This document shows, piece after piece, positions 54,478-60,670 of a DNA stretch of 64,000 bases (positions are counted from its first letter, which is position 1; every line of letters starts with the position of its first letter). The translations under genes were made by a program, and so were the position numbers. Source of the DNA: Gammaproteobacteria bacterium (GTDB taxonomy: Bacteria > Pseudomonadota > Gammaproteobacteria > Pseudomonadales > Cellvibrionaceae); assembly GCA_004172865.1 (NCBI GenBank), contig SEBV01000013.1:62001-126000 (forward strand). The letters are read 5' to 3'. The notes beneath the pieces were generated by a model. The model saw only the letters and a program-made list of their open reading frames with translations. It was not told the origin of the DNA and did no database searches.

Positions 54478-54834
54478 CGTCAAATAACTTGGCAGCGTCA
54501 AGCATTAAAGAAGAACGTTTATATCGACGGGACATTAATTGGCGAATCATCCAACAAAGTGTTCTTTTACAAAACCTTTGCGCCTGGCACTCATAAATTG
54601 TCAACGGAATCAGAATTTAGCGAGAACTATACCGAATTAAAAACTGAAGGCGGCAAAAACTATTTTGTTGAGCAATCAATAAAAATGGGCGTCTTCGTTG
54701 GCGGTGCAGTTGAGTTTCAATTCTTAGCTCCACATGGTTCGCAGGTTGAATATTTTCAAATTTTTTTGGATTACGAAAATATTTTCGCGGAAAAAATCAA
54801 AAAAATTTTCATCCCACCACCTGATGCCTTTTAA
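54478..54834 (+). pseudogene. N-terminally truncated DUF2846 gene remnant
   Basis: An open frame after a TGA at 54475 encodes a clear DUF2846 C-terminal part (VYIDGTLIGESS, FAPGTHKLSTESEFSE, GGKNYFVEQSIKMGVFVGGA). The signal peptide and first strands that such lipoprotein-like proteins carry are missing. No start with a ribosome site lies at the right place; the first in-frame GTG at 54559 is inside the domain. The 3' end overlaps the convergent GntR gene by 26 bp. It looks like a decayed gene. Confidence 0.65.
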
Positions 54835-55483
54835 TCGCCTGTTGCAACTGGCTAAGCGTTACGCTTCGCGCTAGCTCCTGGCTTTTGCGGATGTGTTTTG
54901 TCATGGCACGACGGGCTTGGGTTTTATTGTGTTCGCGGATGAGTTGGCAGATTGAGGAATGTTCGTCGCAGGTTTCTATTACGGCTTGACGATCTGGAAA
55001 ACCCAAGCGACGTAAAATTCGAATGTGATTATTTATATCGCGTAGATAATTCGCGAGGATATTGTTGCCACTGCCGATGGCGATGGCGATATGAAATGCT
55101 TCTTCGCGCACTTTAATTTCTTCCATGTCTATTTCGTTTTCTAAATTTTCGCGGTTCCATTCCTCTTGCAACGCATCTATATCCTCATCGCTCATATGGT
55201 CGCAGGCTAATTCGACGGCGGTGGCTTCGAGGGTAATGCGCACGTCGTAATATTGGCTGATGGATTCGATGTCCACCGAGCGAACGAAACAGCCTTGCTT
55301 GGGCATGATGGTGATTTGCCCTTCGGTTTCCAAGCGCTGTAGTGCGGCGCGTACCGGCGTGCGGCTTACTTGAAAGTCTTCCGCAATTTCTGATTCGGTG
55401 ATGCGTGTGCCTGGGTAAATTTCAAAGTCGATTATTTTTTTCTTGAGCTGTTCGTAAACCAGTTGCGCAGACGATTTGGCCAA
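54809..55483 (-). CDS. GntR/FCD regulator of the biuret/triuret-type cluster
   Basis: A 224-residue FadR-type repressor: winged helix (about 5-70, YPGTRITESEIAEDFQVSRTPVRAALQRL) and FCD domain (about 78-210, RITLEATAVELACDH, FHIAIAIGSGNN). It is divergent from the porin gene across a 457-bp gap that holds a perfect 14-bp palindrome. Control of the porin-hydrolase-permease genes is inferred from position. Confidence 0.88.
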   Translation of the reverse strand: MAKSSAQLVYEQLKKKIIDFEIYPGTRITESEIAEDFQVSRTPVRAALQRLETEGQITIMPKQGCFVRSVDIESISQYYDVRITLEATAVELACDHMSDEDIDALQEEWNRENLENEIDMEEIKVREEAFHIAIAIGSGNNILANYLRDINNHIRILRRLGFPDRQAVIETCDEHSSICQLIREHNKTQARRAMTKHIRKSQELARSVTLSQLQQAIKRHQVVG

Positions 55484-55940
55484 AAGTAGTGCTCCAGTTT
55501 AAATGCAGAAGAGTTTTTCATTTAGGGAGAAATTGGATGTTTACGTCTTCATGGTAGGTGAGGCTCTTCAGCTTGTAAACAACACTTACTGTTAACCGAT
55601 TTACGCGGTTAATTGCATTTATTTCATCGTTATTCGCCCTCAAGAAGTGCAGTGAATATTGGTCTAGATATTTTTTGGTGCCAATCTTCTCTCCAAATCC
55701 CCGCTACAAAACCTGACCATTTTTGATATGCAATCATAAAAACTCAGATAACTCATGGAGTTGCGACGTTTAAATCTGTTCATTTTTCGAACTGGCACGA
55801 CCCATGCTAAACACATCGTTGTATACAACGTTGATCTATTAAAACACACAATGATGTAAACCAAAGCCGGAAATCACCTTAAAACCAAGACCATTTACGG
55901 CTAGCGCCGTCACTTACCAATAATTAGCGAGGGAGTACTC
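55484..55940. other. Control region between the GntR gene and the porin gene
   Basis: A 457-bp gap with no gene. It contains the palindromic operator at 55817-55830 and AT-rich stretches before the porin ATG. GAGGGAGT lies just before the porin start. No clear -35/-10 pair stands out. Confidence 0.5.
55817..55830. promoter_or_regulatory. Perfect palindromic operator CGTTGTATACAACG
   Basis: All 14 bases are self-complementary. The core TTGTATACAA is the classical FCD-type GntR operator form (TTGTA..TACAA). It lies 110 bp before the porin ATG. Confidence 0.75.
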
Positions 55941-56996
55941 ATGAAGATAAATAACCGCTTGATTACGCAGTTGATCGCCCCAGCCTGTTTTAGCTCTCTC
56001 TTGCTACTCGCGAATTCAGCGAGCGCCGAATCATCGCTAGATTTTGTTGGCGAACTGGATACCTACTTGGGCTACAACCGTCCCGCTGGCGGTGATGACG
56101 TCGAGAGCAAAACCGGCGTTGAATCCAATGGTTTAACCACTTCCTATTTAGGCGTACATGGCAGTCACGATCTGGATAACGGCTTGACTGCCATAGCATC
56201 GGTAGAAGCTTTTATGCGGCCAGACTCCGGCGAAATTGGGCGCTTTGAAGATGACATCATGTTCGCACGCGCCGCTTATTTTGGGCTTAAAGGCGACTTC
56301 GGCCAATTCACGATTGGGCGTAATACCAGCCTTTATTTTTTGTCCGCGATTATTTTTAACCCCTTCGGCGATTCCTTTTCCTTCTCACCCATGGTGCTCT
56401 CAAGCTTCGGCGGTGGCGGCCTTTATGGCGATACTGGCTGGAGCGATTCGCTGGTCTACACCACCCCTACCGCAGGCGGTTTCACTACCAGCTTCTCCTA
56501 CGCCTTCGGTGAAAAAGCGGGCGATACCAGCACCAATAAGATGGCTGCCAATACCTTTTATAAATCCGGCGATTTCGGATTTACCGCCGCTATCCAGAAA
56601 ATTTCCGGCACGCAATCGGGCGCCACGGGATTGGGACCAGATGATGACCAAACCGATGGAATCGTCGGCATTAGCTACGCCATCGGCGACAGCACAGTTT
56701 ATGCACAGTACCAAATGATGCGCGACAAAATTAACGGCGAAGGCAGTGATATTGACCGCGATACGCTGGTCTTGAGCGCGTCGATTGCGGTCGGAAAAGG
56801 CGCGATTTATCTCGGCTATGGCTACACCAAAATCGACACAGATGGCAGCGACTACGACCGCAACATCTATACGATTATGTACAACCTGCCCCTGAGCAAA
56901 AAACTCGATTTATACGTCGGCTACACCAACGACGACCCCGAATGGACGGAGAAAACCGGCCAAACCTTTGGCCTCGGTGGACGCTTCCGTTTCTAA
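55941..56996 (+). CDS. Gram-negative trimeric-type porin
   Basis: A 351-residue outer-membrane beta-barrel. It has a signal peptide ending ANSASA (about residue 29), strands with the general porin pattern (SLDFVGELDTYLGYN, YLGVHGSHDLDNGLTAIASVEAF, FGQFTIGRNTSLY) and the terminal aromatic Phe in FGLGGRFRF for BAM recognition. It is first in the cluster after the palindromic operator. It probably admits the small polar N-compound used by the downstream enzymes (inference). Confidence 0.9.
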   Translation: MKINNRLITQLIAPACFSSLLLLANSASAESSLDFVGELDTYLGYNRPAGGDDVESKTGVESNGLTTSYLGVHGSHDLDNGLTAIASVEAFMRPDSGEIGRFEDDIMFARAAYFGLKGDFGQFTIGRNTSLYFLSAIIFNPFGDSFSFSPMVLSSFGGGGLYGDTGWSDSLVYTTPTAGGFTTSFSYAFGEKAGDTSTNKMAANTFYKSGDFGFTAAIQKISGTQSGATGLGPDDDQTDGIVGISYAIGDSTVYAQYQMMRDKINGEGSDIDRDTLVLSASIAVGKGAIYLGYGYTKIDTDGSDYDRNIYTIMYNLPLSKKLDLYVGYTNDDPEWTEKTGQTFGLGGRFRF

Positions 56997-57032
56997 ATCG
57001 CGCAGCCCTGAAGCGCCTACGAGAACACCACT

Positions 57033-57728
57033 ATGAGTACACAAGTGATTGCCGCCAAGCCCGAAGCCATAGCGCTGGATCTGAGCAAAGCGGCGCTGAT
57101 CATTATTGATATGCAGCGCGACTTTCTCGAACCCGGCGGCTTCGGCGCAAGCCTTGGCAATGATGTGAGTTTGTTGCGCAGCTGTATCGAACCTTGCCAA
57201 CGCTTACTAGCAGCAGCGCGGGCGGCAGACATGATGGTGATTCACACCCGCGAAGGTCATCTACCAGATTTGTCCGATGCACCGCCCGCCAAGATTGAAA
57301 GGGGCAAGCCATCGCTGCGAATTGGCAATACCGGCCCTATGGGACGGATTCTGGTTCGCGGCGAACCGGGTCACGGAATCATCCCCGAGCTGGCGCCCAT
57401 AAAGGGCGAGCTGGTGATCGACAAACCCGGCAAGGGCGCTTTTTATCACACGGATTTGCAAGAACAACTGCAAGCGCGCGGCATAGAAAACCTGCTGGTG
57501 TGCGGCGTCACCACGGAAGTCTGCGTACACACCACCGTTCGTGAAGCCAATGACCGCGGCTACCGTTGCGTCGTTATCAGCGATGCCTGCGGTTCCTATT
57601 TTCCCGAATTCCACGAGATGGGATTGCGGGTGATTACGGCACAGGGAGGAATTTTTGGATGGGTCGCTACCTCCGGCGCGGTGATTGCGTCGATCAAGAA
57701 TGCGGCGACTCAAGCGCTACAAACTTAA
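57033..57728 (+). CDS. Cysteine hydrolase (isochorismatase fold), candidate triuret hydrolase
   Basis: A 231-residue amidohydrolase of the cysteine hydrolase family. The triad is Asp26 (IIIDMQRDF), Lys131 (IDKPGKGAF) and Cys164 ([11 protein letters not shown]). It is a clear paralogue of the BiuH-like gene downstream: both share [22 protein letters not shown] and TT.VCVHTT.REANDRG. It differs at substrate-side segments, with [12 protein letters not shown] and [15 protein letters not shown] role on triuret or a related ureide is inferred from its pairing with the biuret hydrolase and is not proven by sequence. Confidence 0.85.
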
Positions 57729-57813
57729 GTTCAAGGCGTTACGTTTTAAGACCACAGTTCGACCAAAGCACCATCGACTAGAAGCAACTTATAAATAACT
57801 TGGAGGTACCGCT

Positions 57814-59379
57814 ATGCAAACAACCAAACCCACTATTTGGGTGCCTGGAGATTGGAATGCGTTCTTCGGCTTCGGCACCAATATTCTTGTCAACCTACTC
57901 GTACTCACCGGCTTGCTGCGCTATGTGCTGAATATGCCGGACGATCTTGTCTTCGGGAGAATCCTGCCGGCGACGGGTTTAATGCTGTGTATTAGTACGC
58001 TTTATTACGCCTACCTCGCGTACAAGCTCGCGCAAAAAACCGGGCGAACGGACGTGTGCGCCCTGCCTTCGGGAATATCCGTGCCGCATATGTTTGTGGT
58101 GGTGTTCGTGATTATGTTGCCCATCGCCACCATGACGGGTAATCCACTTAAAGGTTGGGAAGCCGGTTTAACCTGGGTGTTCGTGCAAAGTTTTGTGTTG
58201 ATGGTAGGCGGCTATATCGCGCCCTACATTCGTAAAATCACCCCGCGCGCTGCACTTTTGGGAACTCTTGCCGGTGTATCCATCGCCTTTATTTCACTGC
58301 GCCCCGCGTTGGAAATGTTTATGACACCGGTGATCGGCGTCGTCTGTTTTGCGATTATTTTACTGAGCTGGTTTGGCGGCGTTCGCTATTTCAAAGGAAT
58401 ACCCGCCGGCCTTGTCGCCATCGCCGTTGGTACTTTAATCGCGTGGGGTTCAACGGCGATGGGCCTGAACTACGGCGGTCTTACGCTCGAAAAACTCACT
58501 CAATCCGTCACCAGCTTTGGCTTTTCGGTACCGATTCCGGCAATCGGCCATGTGTTCTCCGGCTTTGAATTTATCGGCGTAATTCTTGTTACCGCCATTC
58601 CTTTCGGGATTTACGACCTCGTGGAAGCCATGGACAACGTAGAGAGCGCCGCAGTCGCAGGCGATGATTTCCCCACAACCCGCGTGCTCACTGCAGATGG
58701 TGTCATCAGCCTGATTGGTTGCTGCATGGGAAATCCGTTTATCAACGCGGTTTACATCGGTCACCCGGGTTGGAAGTCTATGGGCGGGCGAATCGGTTAT
58801 TCAGCCGCAACAGGGATTGCAGTGCTGGTGCTGTGCTGGCTGGGAATTATCGCGGTGTTTTCATCGTTTATTCCGATTGTCGCCATATCGCCGATTCTGC
58901 TCTACATAGGCATGCTGATTGGCTCCCAAGCCTTTCAGGAAAGCCCGAAAAGTCACGCTCCAGCGATTATCGTTGCCCTTATGCCGCATCTCGCCGCTTG
59001 GGGGAAATTGCAAATCGATAACGTACTCGGCGCGGCAGGAACCAACGCAGCGACCGTCGGCTTGGACAAACTCGCTCAGACCGGCGTCTTGTATCACGGA
59101 CTGTCGGTACTCGGCGGCGGCGCGATTCTGGGTGGATTGATGCTCGGCGCAATCACCGTATTTATTATTGATCGTGCTTTTGTTAAAGCCTCTGCTTTTG
59201 CACTCGCCAGCTCGGTAATGACCTTCTTCGGATTTATGCACGGCGAAGCCATCGGAATCGGACAAACACCCACAGTCGCCTTCGCGTATTTCGCGGTTGC
59301 TTGCGTGCTGTTCGCCTGCGCGAAATTTAGTGTGGCGGATAACCGGGCGCCGGAACCCTTGGAACATAGTCATGCGTGA
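57814..59379 (+). CDS. NCS2-like permease
   Basis: A 521-residue inner-membrane transporter with about 12-14 helices and features of the nucleobase-cation-symporter-2 / xanthine-uracil permease superfamily (LPSGISVPHMF, GIYDLVEAMDNVESAAVAGDDFPTTRVL, NPFINAVYIGHPGWKSMGGR). Ribosome site GGAGGT precedes the ATG. Flanked by two cysteine hydrolases, it most likely imports the ureide or pyrimidine-like substrate that they use. Confidence 0.85.
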   Translation: MQTTKPTIWVPGDWNAFFGFGTNILVNLLVLTGLLRYVLNMPDDLVFGRILPATGLMLCISTLYYAYLAYKLAQKTGRTDVCALPSGISVPHMFVVVFVIMLPIATMTGNPLKGWEAGLTWVFVQSFVLMVGGYIAPYIRKITPRAALLGTLAGVSIAFISLRPALEMFMTPVIGVVCFAIILLSWFGGVRYFKGIPAGLVAIAVGTLIAWGSTAMGLNYGGLTLEKLTQSVTSFGFSVPIPAIGHVFSGFEFIGVILVTAIPFGIYDLVEAMDNVESAAVAGDDFPTTRVLTADGVISLIGCCMGNPFINAVYIGHPGWKSMGGRIGYSAATGIAVLVLCWLGIIAVFSSFIPIVAISPILLYIGMLIGSQAFQESPKSHAPAIIVALMPHLAAWGKLQIDNVLGAAGTNAATVGLDKLAQTGVLYHGLSVLGGGAILGGLMLGAITVFIIDRAFVKASAFALASSVMTFFGFMHGEAIGIGQTPTVAFAYFAVACVLFACAKFSVADNRAPEPLEHSHA

Positions 59380-59444
59380 TGAGAGGATCATCTCGTTCCC
59401 TATCCGGGCGCCCCAAACTCCTTGCTTGGGAACGCATATATACA

Positions 59445-59539
59445 CTCCCAAGCTGGAGCTTGGGAGCGAGGGGTGAAGTAAAAGGAATCGTCATCCCCGC
59501 AGGGGATACAGTACTCGTTCCCAAGCTCCAGCTTGGGAA
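59445..59539. repeat. AAGCTnnAGCTTGGGA hairpin repeats between permease and BiuH genes
   Basis: Two near-identical palindromes, CTCCCAAGCT-GG-AGCTTGGGAG (59445-59466) and TTCCCAAGCT-CC-AGCTTGGGAA (59518-59539), flank a smaller ATCCCC/GGGGAT hairpin (59493-59506) next to GGAATCGTCATCC. A partial third copy lies near 59418-59434. This common proteobacterial repeat type adds a non-coding insertion inside the operon. Confidence 0.8.
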
Positions 59540-59631
59540 TGCAGATTTACCTCTAGCTGGGGCTTACGCTGATTTCGGTGGCCCCTTTTTTACTAACACT
59601 TATTGAACCCGACTCTTCCACCGGAGCCACT

Positions 59632-60312
59632 ATGACGACTTATCTCTCAAGCACTCCCTATCTCTGGCCGTACGATGGCGATTTACGCCCGGAAAATACC
59701 GCGTTGATCATCATTGATATGCAAACGGATTTCTGCGGCGCGGGAGGTTATGTGGATAGCATGGGCTACGATATCGGCCTTACGCGCGCGCCTATCGAAC
59801 CGATCAAACAATTGCTCGCGGCTATGCGCGAAAAAGGCTTTCACATTATTCACACCCGCGAAGGTCATCGCCCCGACCTCGCGGATTTACCCGCTAACAA
59901 ACGCTGGCGCTCGCGGCAAATAGGCGCAGGTATTGGCGATGAAGGACCCTGCGGCAAAATTCTGATTCGCGGTGAACCGGGCTGGGAAATTATTCCCGAA
60001 CTCGCGCCCATTGAAGGCGAAATTATTATCGACAAGCCTGGCAAAGGTTCTTTTTACGCAACGGATTTGGAGCTGGTGCTACACACCAAAGGCATTCGCA
60101 ATTTGATTCTCACCGGCATCACTACCGATGTCTGCGTGCACACCACCATGCGTGAAGCCAACGACCGCGGTTTTGAATGTGTGCTAGTCGCCGACTGTTG
60201 CGCGGCGACTGATCCCGCCAATCACAAAGCTGCACTAGCGATGATTCATATGCAAGGCGGCGTATTTGGCGCCGTCACAAAATCGACAGCTTTATTAGAA
60301 GCGCTTGCGTAA
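59632..60312 (+). CDS. biuH: Biuret amidohydrolase BiuH-type cysteine hydrolase
   Basis: This 226-residue enzyme should cleave biuret to allophanate and ammonia. The start is the ATG at 59632 (CCGGAG upstream). Triad residues are Asp29 (IIIDMQTDF), Lys135 (IDKPGKGSF) and Cys168 ([11 protein letters not shown]). They sit at a constant offset of seven from Asp36, Lys142 and Cys175, which I recall for Rhizobium biuret hydrolase. Flanking segments also match from memory: [49 protein letters not shown] and MQGGVFGAV. Allophanate would then go to an allophanate hydrolase not in this window. A cupin gene follows 10 bp later. Confidence 0.9.
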
Positions 60313-60322
60313 GGAGATAATT

Positions 60323-60670
60323 TTGGAAAACAAATTGGTGTGGAATAACCTGTTAAATATCACTTTCGATGCGCCGGAAATTAAATGGCAAGATTTTCGC
60401 GCAGGCGTAGATATTTTCCCGCTTTACGGCGATGACTCGCCGGGCTGTTCAAGCGCGCTACTTCGCTATCATCCCGGCGCCCGCATTCCCAAACATTTAC
60501 ATGTCGGCACCGAGTTTTTAATGATTTTATGGGGCAGCCAATCCGACGAGCGCGGCCACTATAAAGCCGGCAGTCTTTTGATCAACCCTACCGATACCAG
60601 TCACGAAATTTTGAGCGAAGAAGGTTGTGTCGTGCTGGCAATTTGGGAAAAACCGGTTCGTTTTATATAA
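60323..60670 (+). CDS. Small cupin protein (ChrR-like)
   Basis: A 115-residue single-domain cupin. The start is TTG at 60323, six bases after AAGGAG. The metal-binding pattern is HLHVGTEFLMILWG with a later His in TSHEIL, resembling the ChrR cupin. The DFRAGVDIFPLYGD segment also fits ChrR-like sensors/enzymes. It lies ten bases after biuH, so it belongs to the same operon. Its role in the pathway is not known. Confidence 0.82.
   Translation: MENKLVWNNLLNITFDAPEIKWQDFRAGVDIFPLYGDDSPGCSSALLRYHPGARIPKHLHVGTEFLMILWGSQSDERGHYKAGSLLINPTDTSHEILSEEGCVVLAIWEKPVRFI

Follow-up and report, generated by a model that had tools for sequence, protein, structure and literature searches.

Triuret breakdown has been described in Herbaspirillum sp. 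BH-1 and Rhizobium leguminosarum as a pathway made up of TrtA, BiuH and AtzF. The available part of that study reports that TrtA and AtzD each yield carboxybiuret, the compound consumed by AtzE, and names the catalytic and binding residues of TrtA together with the residues that set TrtA apart from BiuH (PMC7948467). The accessible part of a report on nitrifiers names a TrtB decarboxylase in ammonia-oxidizing bacteria (PMC12625717). We found no tested transporter of triuret or biuret in the open-licence literature; subscription papers may already cover part of what follows. In this work, we analyze a gene cluster in a 64,000-nucleotide stretch of a Cellvibrionaceae genome (contig SEBV01000013.1, positions 62,001 to 126,000; hereafter the window). 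An earlier inspection of the DNA letters (the sequence-only reading) had placed six genes together there, for a GntR regulator, a porin, two cysteine hydrolases, a permease and a cupin; all six open reading frames (ORFs) were found in place and their families were recognized by profile. It is quite likely that the cluster is a triuret/biuret nitrogen-scavenging operon.

The first hydrolase (hydrolase 1) had been taken as a paralogue of the second with the same triad, and indeed it has Asp26, Lys131 and Cys164 and is 51% identical to hydrolase 2 over 222 positions. We aligned 85 proteins, namely the two window hydrolases, three PDB chains, RutB of Escherichia coli K-12, one E. coli plasmid protein and 78 proteins from the compared loci. 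Taking 6XIX (crystallized Herbaspirillum TrtA) as reference, hydrolase 1 shows the TrtA letters at 14 of 14 active-site and specificity positions, as found in 41 of the 85 aligned rows, and all seven TrtA specificity residues (F35, N41, A134, E160, Y187, Q202 and I205 in TrtA numbering) are present. Its identity to 6XIX is 65% over 195 aa. In a rapid phylogeny built from 84 of these rows (one shortened row was removed), hydrolase 1 groups with 6XIX, though on a separate sub-branch, with a Shimodaira-Hasegawa-like approximate likelihood ratio test (SH-aLRT) value of 97. Clustering with RutB or isochorismatases had been named as what would speak against the assignment; in this tree without other isochorismatases, RutB formed the outgroup and its branch is very long. 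Hydrolase 1 also stays under the cut-off of the BiuH model NF050097 (270 vs 370 bits), and neither hydrolase passes the RutB model TIGR03614 (120 and 119 bits, cut-off 378). Because the different substrate-side loops noted earlier hold published TrtA specificity residues, the substrate once given as triuret or another ureide can be narrowed to triuret, which residues and tree favor. A preference of about 10^4-fold for triuret over biuret is a mark of the TrtA class. Its residues and its branch in the tree identify hydrolase 1 as a predicted triuret hydrolase of the TrtA type.

In the case of hydrolase 2, the triad Asp29, Lys135 and Cys168 is exact when the ATG at 59632 is taken as the start, which is likelier than the listed ORF start at 59578. 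This protein passes NF050097, the NCBIfam model for BiuH (424 bits, cut-off 370), carries the BiuH letters at 14 of 14 positions with R. leguminosarum BiuH as reference (29 of the 85 aligned rows are alike), and has Y, Y, S, D, T, Q and V at the TrtA specificity positions, the same as that reference, to which it is 76% identical over 224 aa. It falls in the BiuH branch of the tree, where the SH-aLRT value of 86 is below the mark of 95. Residues, tree and profile agree with the earlier proposal, and on these grounds hydrolase 2 is a predicted biuret hydrolase, BiuH.

No AtzF gene adjoins the cluster among the listed ORFs. A search of the genome (5.25 Mb, rated 99.9% complete with 3.6% contamination), as had been suggested, gave a single match over the cut-off, 816 bits against 511, on contig C182. 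The genes that come next there encode urea carboxylase (1934 bits against a cut-off of 1304), a GntR-type protein and UrtA (559 bits against 493). Since AtzF sits beside urea carboxylase, the cluster seems to borrow its last enzyme from the urea pathway, and judging from these genes allophanate breakdown can be completed by the urea amidolyase pair (AtzF plus urea carboxylase). The genome profile search for urease returned one match of 26.6 bits, far under the cut-off of 680. Given the identities of TrtA and BiuH and the AtzF elsewhere in the genome, the enzymology is that of the known pathway.

The permease had been called NCS2-like, a description that holds at the level of the predicted fold and fails at the level of sequence, where Pfam gave no family even at E = 10 and a profile search of PDB sequences gave chance matches alone (E > 1). 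An AlphaFold model built from 24 sequences (predicted local distance difference test [pLDDT] 67, predicted template modeling score 0.68) was placed by Foldseek and VIA-align near UapA, SVCT1, UraA and AZG, with SLC26-type and SLC4-type proteins close behind. Identity to the NCS2/AZG structures in the structural alignment rows is 10-16%, and the predicted structure shows the UraA-type fold by which NCS2/NAT membership is judged.

Gene linkage points to the cargo. Within the genus, 11 of 21 genomes have the permease, and they are the very ones with a full-length TrtA-type gene at 72% identity or more; the genome with hydrolase fragments alone (G013) and the one with a 49% hydrolase (G004) have no permease match. 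The TrtA-permease-BiuH block itself recurs in 11 of the 21 genomes, counting the source genome and a copy split over contig ends (G017), and the cluster is therefore more than a chance assembly. In 61 of the 80 nearest TrtA loci (the closest 80 of at least 567 relatives), a permease at more than 80% coverage lies 39-501 bp downstream of TrtA. We also sampled 249 Hyphomicrobiales genomes evenly out of a larger group. The permease was matched at E 1e-50 or better in 22, and all 20 homologues at 64% identity or more have a TrtA-family hydrolase 64-243 bp upstream; the 10 that were checked by residues are TrtA, and the other 10 were assigned by position and 50-55% identity to BiuH. The remaining two matches are at 53%, with the hydrolase on the other side (G050), and at 35%, with no hydrolase match (G080). 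Linkage to TrtA thus makes the permease a strong candidate for a triuret importer, and what stands beside hydrolase 1 looks like an undescribed triuret transporter. The same linkage turns it into a specific and testable transport candidate. If confirmed, it would show how bacteria gain access to triuret, a fertilizer impurity and urate-oxidation product, and would serve as a marker of triuret use independent of the enzyme alone.

Other TrtA loci have other transporters. BiuH at 69% or more was found in 53 of the 249 Hyphomicrobiales genomes, 6 with the permease and 47 without it. In 20 of these 47 genomes we picked permease-free loci with BiuH and TrtA close together, and all 20 carry an ATP-binding cassette (ABC) transporter, whose BMP-type binding protein, ATPase and permease genes were recognized by similarity clusters, with Pfam run on representatives. 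In a further locus, L218, a UT-type urea transporter (PF03253, 7236-8270) lies between the cupin and a variant TrtA-type gene with Asp at residue 41, Thr at 134 and Phe at 187; a similar gap exists in five more loci (L217, L219-L222), the family scan having covered L218. The partners of TrtA therefore include at least two, and perhaps three, unrelated kinds of transporter. On plasmid pRLgr12_3 of R. leguminosarum Gr 12/7 (L234, 1-8006), BMP transporter genes, a formamidase, an isochorismatase-family hydrolase (BiuH by position), AtzD, an ABC ATPase, TrtA and the cupin stand in one run.

The cupin model is confident (pLDDT 89), its closest structures being Reut_B4571 and ChrR cupins, and its His-X-His, Glu and distal His (H64, H66, E70 and H100) are invariant in 17 of 17 sequences. 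Matches at 1e-12 were found in 36 of the 249 Hyphomicrobiales genomes. The 18 strongest homologues (74 bits or more) all lie within 1.2 kb of a TrtA-type hydrolase; 12 of these hydrolases were aligned and fall in the TrtA branch, and the remaining 6 were assigned by location and sequence identity. Weaker matches (59 bits or less) lie at 19 places, 17 of them within open frames of at least 220 codons, as expected of ChrR. Among the 20 ABC-type loci, AtzE is present in 11, the cupin in 5, neither in 4 and both in none (chance of no overlap 0.008 under independence of the loci, an assumption that does not hold). Over 100 loci, i.e., the 80 nearest TrtA loci plus the 20 permease-free ones, AtzE occurs in 21, the cupin in 10 and both in none (chance 0.08); one AtzE representative scored 648 bits against TIGR02715 (cut-off 426), and AtzE was counted at 38% identity or more. 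Because AtzE consumes carboxybiuret and shares none of the 100 loci with the cupin, the cupin plausibly acts on carboxybiuret, at moderate odds, and it can be named as a candidate for the carboxybiuret step wherever a lineage lacks AtzE. In R. leguminosarum L234, it stands in one operon with TrtA and AtzD, two enzymes that yield carboxybiuret (PMC7948467). Cupin-fold enzymes of ureide metabolism do exist, such as ureidoglycine aminohydrolase. A survey of 13 AtzD-family loci across the phylum argues against such a role, as none has the cupin beside AtzD; the alignment of the AtzD query ORF to most AtzD genes was partial, and we therefore used the cupin count alone. Six of the 13 have an AtzE-like amidase at 28%, and we presume that these may be barbiturase loci.

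Another carboxybiuret candidate is possibly a 5-formyltetrahydrofolate cyclo-ligase-like protein near TrtA in 9 of the 20 permease-free loci (L166-L170, L173, L176, L180 and L181). The one copy that was scanned (L169) has PF01812 and is far under the MTHFS cut-off.

Alternative explanations were also weighed. Hydrolase 1 might act on another ureide such as guanylurea or ureidoacrylate, and guanylurea hydrolases related to TrtA and BiuH do belong to the same superfamily, as stated in the available part of the source (PMC9800807). Every TrtA specificity residue is kept in hydrolase 1, however, and ureidoacrylate is disfavored by the RutB model score and by the place of RutB in the tree, which holds no guanylurea hydrolase sequences; we consider such a substrate very improbable. 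With the enzymes unchanged, the permease could instead carry biuret, or both compounds, and in Cellvibrio it does stand between TrtA and BiuH. Yet BiuH at 69% or more is missing from 14 of the 20 permease-bearing Hyphomicrobiales genomes (one of the 14, G203, has a 57% match), the permease is missing from 47 of the 53 BiuH genomes, and the permease shows no association with BiuH (Fisher P 0.39 over the 249 genomes); it does not follow BiuH rather than TrtA. This explanation is unlikely. A purine cargo is suggested by the NCS2/NAT fold, since NCS2-fold proteins usually carry nucleobases, by relatives at 36-43% that are annotated in part as "xanthine permease", and by an OHCU decarboxylase of urate breakdown in the source genome. 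Such a xanthine or urate carrier would travel with TrtA because urate oxidation gives triuret. None of the cluster ORFs is a urate-pathway gene, though, and each of the 20 close homologues has a TrtA-type gene upstream of it, so that this cargo also seems improbable, to about the same degree as the preceding explanation.

The cupin meets a stronger competitor, in which it is a small sensor or a ChrR-type regulatory protein and no enzyme. ChrR cupins are both its best named families and among its top fold matches, and we give this explanation somewhat less than an even chance. Its match to the ChrR model is confined to the cupin portion (positions 105-202 out of 216), and it does not pass the curated ChrR models (51 vs 124.5 bits and 34 vs 300 bits); no sigma-factor gene was noticed among the cluster ORFs. 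It also overlaps enzyme genes as a pathway member would: by 8 bases with BiuH, provided that the listed and uncertain TTG start is correct, and by 8 bases with TrtA in R. leguminosarum L234. The most far-reaching reading joins two claims, that the permease founds an NCS2-fold family of triuret transporters alternative to BMP/ABC systems and that the cupin is a carboxybiuret decarboxylase, or another carboxybiuret-handling enzyme, that replaces AtzE; taken together they are possible but doubtful.

Control of the operon probably lies with the divergent GntR protein, acting at a candidate operator in the region between its gene and the porin gene. The 14-base palindrome there, CGTTGTATACAACG, is found in three of four compared loci (the window, L012 and L025), L013 having only the 12-base core GTTGTATACAAC. 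This core has exactly one exact occurrence in the whole genome. Allowing up to one mismatch gave 7 places in the genome, whereas the reversed control gave 19, and for this reason only the single exact site is noteworthy. Promoter-like sites were no more frequent than chance (7 found, 7.3 expected).

The families of the enzymes, their specificity residues, the linkage of the genes, the AtzF gene and the unique palindrome were read from the sequence, and the substrates of porin, permease and cupin, the regulation and the flux are inferred. The porin would admit ureides to the periplasm, and the NCS2-fold permease would move triuret, perhaps biuret too, across the inner membrane. TrtA would turn triuret into carboxybiuret with release of one ammonia, and carboxybiuret would lose CO2, spontaneously or aided, possibly by the cupin, to become biuret. 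Unaided, carboxybiuret has a half-life of about 20 minutes (PMC7948467). BiuH would then convert biuret into allophanate and ammonia, AtzF beside urea carboxylase on C182 would complete allophanate breakdown, and the GntR protein would govern the operon through the palindrome.

Several observations weigh against this scheme. AtzF lies on a contig other than that of the cluster, and no exact copy of the palindrome is found upstream of it. With a pLDDT of 67, the permease model deserves moderate confidence, and a urate or xanthine cargo would suit its fold. Well-covered permeases are absent from 19 of the 80 nearest TrtA loci, of which L025 (cut by a contig end) and L048 do show a copy; these 80, being the nearest relatives, are no random sample, and the 20 permease-free loci were likewise a chosen set. 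Two Bradyrhizobium loci of the 100 (L014 and L027) carry the permease plus a BmpA homologue, and the transporter types are therefore not strictly exclusive.

The genes for porin, hydrolase 1, permease, hydrolase 2 and cupin share one orientation, the first four being separated by 36, 85 and about 250 bp (table 1). By the TrtA gene, the closest named relative is a Cellvibrionaceae metagenome-assembled genome (L012, 87% identity). Guanine-cytosine content is 57% in TrtA, 54% in the permease and 53% in BiuH, against 42-52% in other sampled window genes; this fits transfer but is no proof of it, and we kept it out of the argument.

Table 1. Features of the cluster, with positions in the window
Feature	Position	Strand	Basis
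GntR-family (FCD) regulator, divergent	54809..55483	-	PF00392 + PF07729; 86-89% homologue in three Cellvibrio-type loci
Candidate operator CGTTGTATACAACG, GntR-porin intergenic region	55817..55830	.	12-base core GTTGTATACAAC in 4/4 Cellvibrio-type loci
Outer-membrane porin (Porin_4)	55941..56996	+	PF13609, E 1e-46; by homology in 2/3 related loci
Hydrolase 1, TrtA-type cysteine hydrolase, D26/K131/C164	57033..57728	+	PF00857; residues as TrtA 6XIX; tree
Permease, NCS2/NAT-fold, candidate triuret importer	57814..59379	+	Predicted fold; gene linkage
Hydrolase 2, BiuH type, D29/K135/C168	59632..60312	+	NF050097; residues as R. leguminosarum BiuH
Single-domain cupin (Cupin_7)	60305..60670	+	PF12973; H64, H66, E70, H100; TrtA-linked subfamily

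TrtA-type genes were also found in other settings. In E. coli, a hydrolase with 14 of 14 residues occurs on plasmid pACN001-B (L186, 25313-33491) and on the chromosome of H105 (L232, 6001-14197), the chromosomal copy being 62% identical to hydrolase 1 over 222 aa. Its neighbors are AllFGH-like genes (DUF2877, fdrA and DUF1116), carbamate kinase, a cytosine-type permease and a lone allophanate-hydrolase C-terminal domain (PF21986 in L232). Of 5426 complete E. coli genomes, 1543 contain the 8.2-kb stretch at 80% coverage, with 1617 places in total (1488 chromosomal and 129 plasmid). This locus may ferment triuret or biuret via carbamoyl phosphate to ATP; the main text of the AllFGH paper does not contain the words triuret or biuret (PMC11326118). 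A Peptoclostridium acidaminophilum plasmid (L233) has a TrtA-like hydrolase with 12 of 14 residues, flanked by two "xanthine permease" genes and followed by AllFGH-like genes and carbamate kinase, and the pairing of TrtA with such permeases therefore extends to a Gram-positive anaerobe. Of 16 genomes searched, 5 (G021, G024, G026, G027 and G036) have TrtA but no close BiuH, with one match each; in G027 (L056), AtzE and AtzF lie near TrtA and the permease, a gene set that suggests a route by carboxybiuret hydrolysis. In the source genome itself, contig C87 (about 14-86 kb, L093-L095) holds around a dozen or more amidase-signature ORFs interspersed with asparaginase-like ones. Many of the amidase ORFs have signal-peptide-like starts, as judged by eye, and the array could be a secreted amide-degrading island.

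Compared with the TrtA-BiuH-AtzF pathway of Herbaspirillum sp. BH-1 and R. leguminosarum (PMC7948467, available part), the window operon shares the catalytic and specificity residues and AtzF as the end enzyme, but it lacks an AtzF gene of its own and includes a porin and an NCS2-fold permease. The one R. leguminosarum locus examined (L234, strain Gr 12/7) has, in place of these two, a BMP-type ABC transporter, a formamidase and AtzD. The trtA/biuH/atzF loci of nitrifiers, as far as the accessible text describes them, also hold the hydrolase pair on one locus, but, unlike the window, they are collocated with an ABC nucleoside-type transporter, BmpA-NupABC (PMC12625717). With NCS2/NAT permeases such as UraA, UapA and SVCT1, and with AZG, the window permease has its predicted fold in common, SLC26 and SLC4-type folds being nearly as close, whereas its sequence is only 10-16% identical to theirs and is not recognized by Pfam. 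The enzymes are therefore of known types, and what is new is their arrangement, with a porin and an NCS2-fold permease of their own and AtzF outsourced, together with what gene linkage says about permease and cupin.

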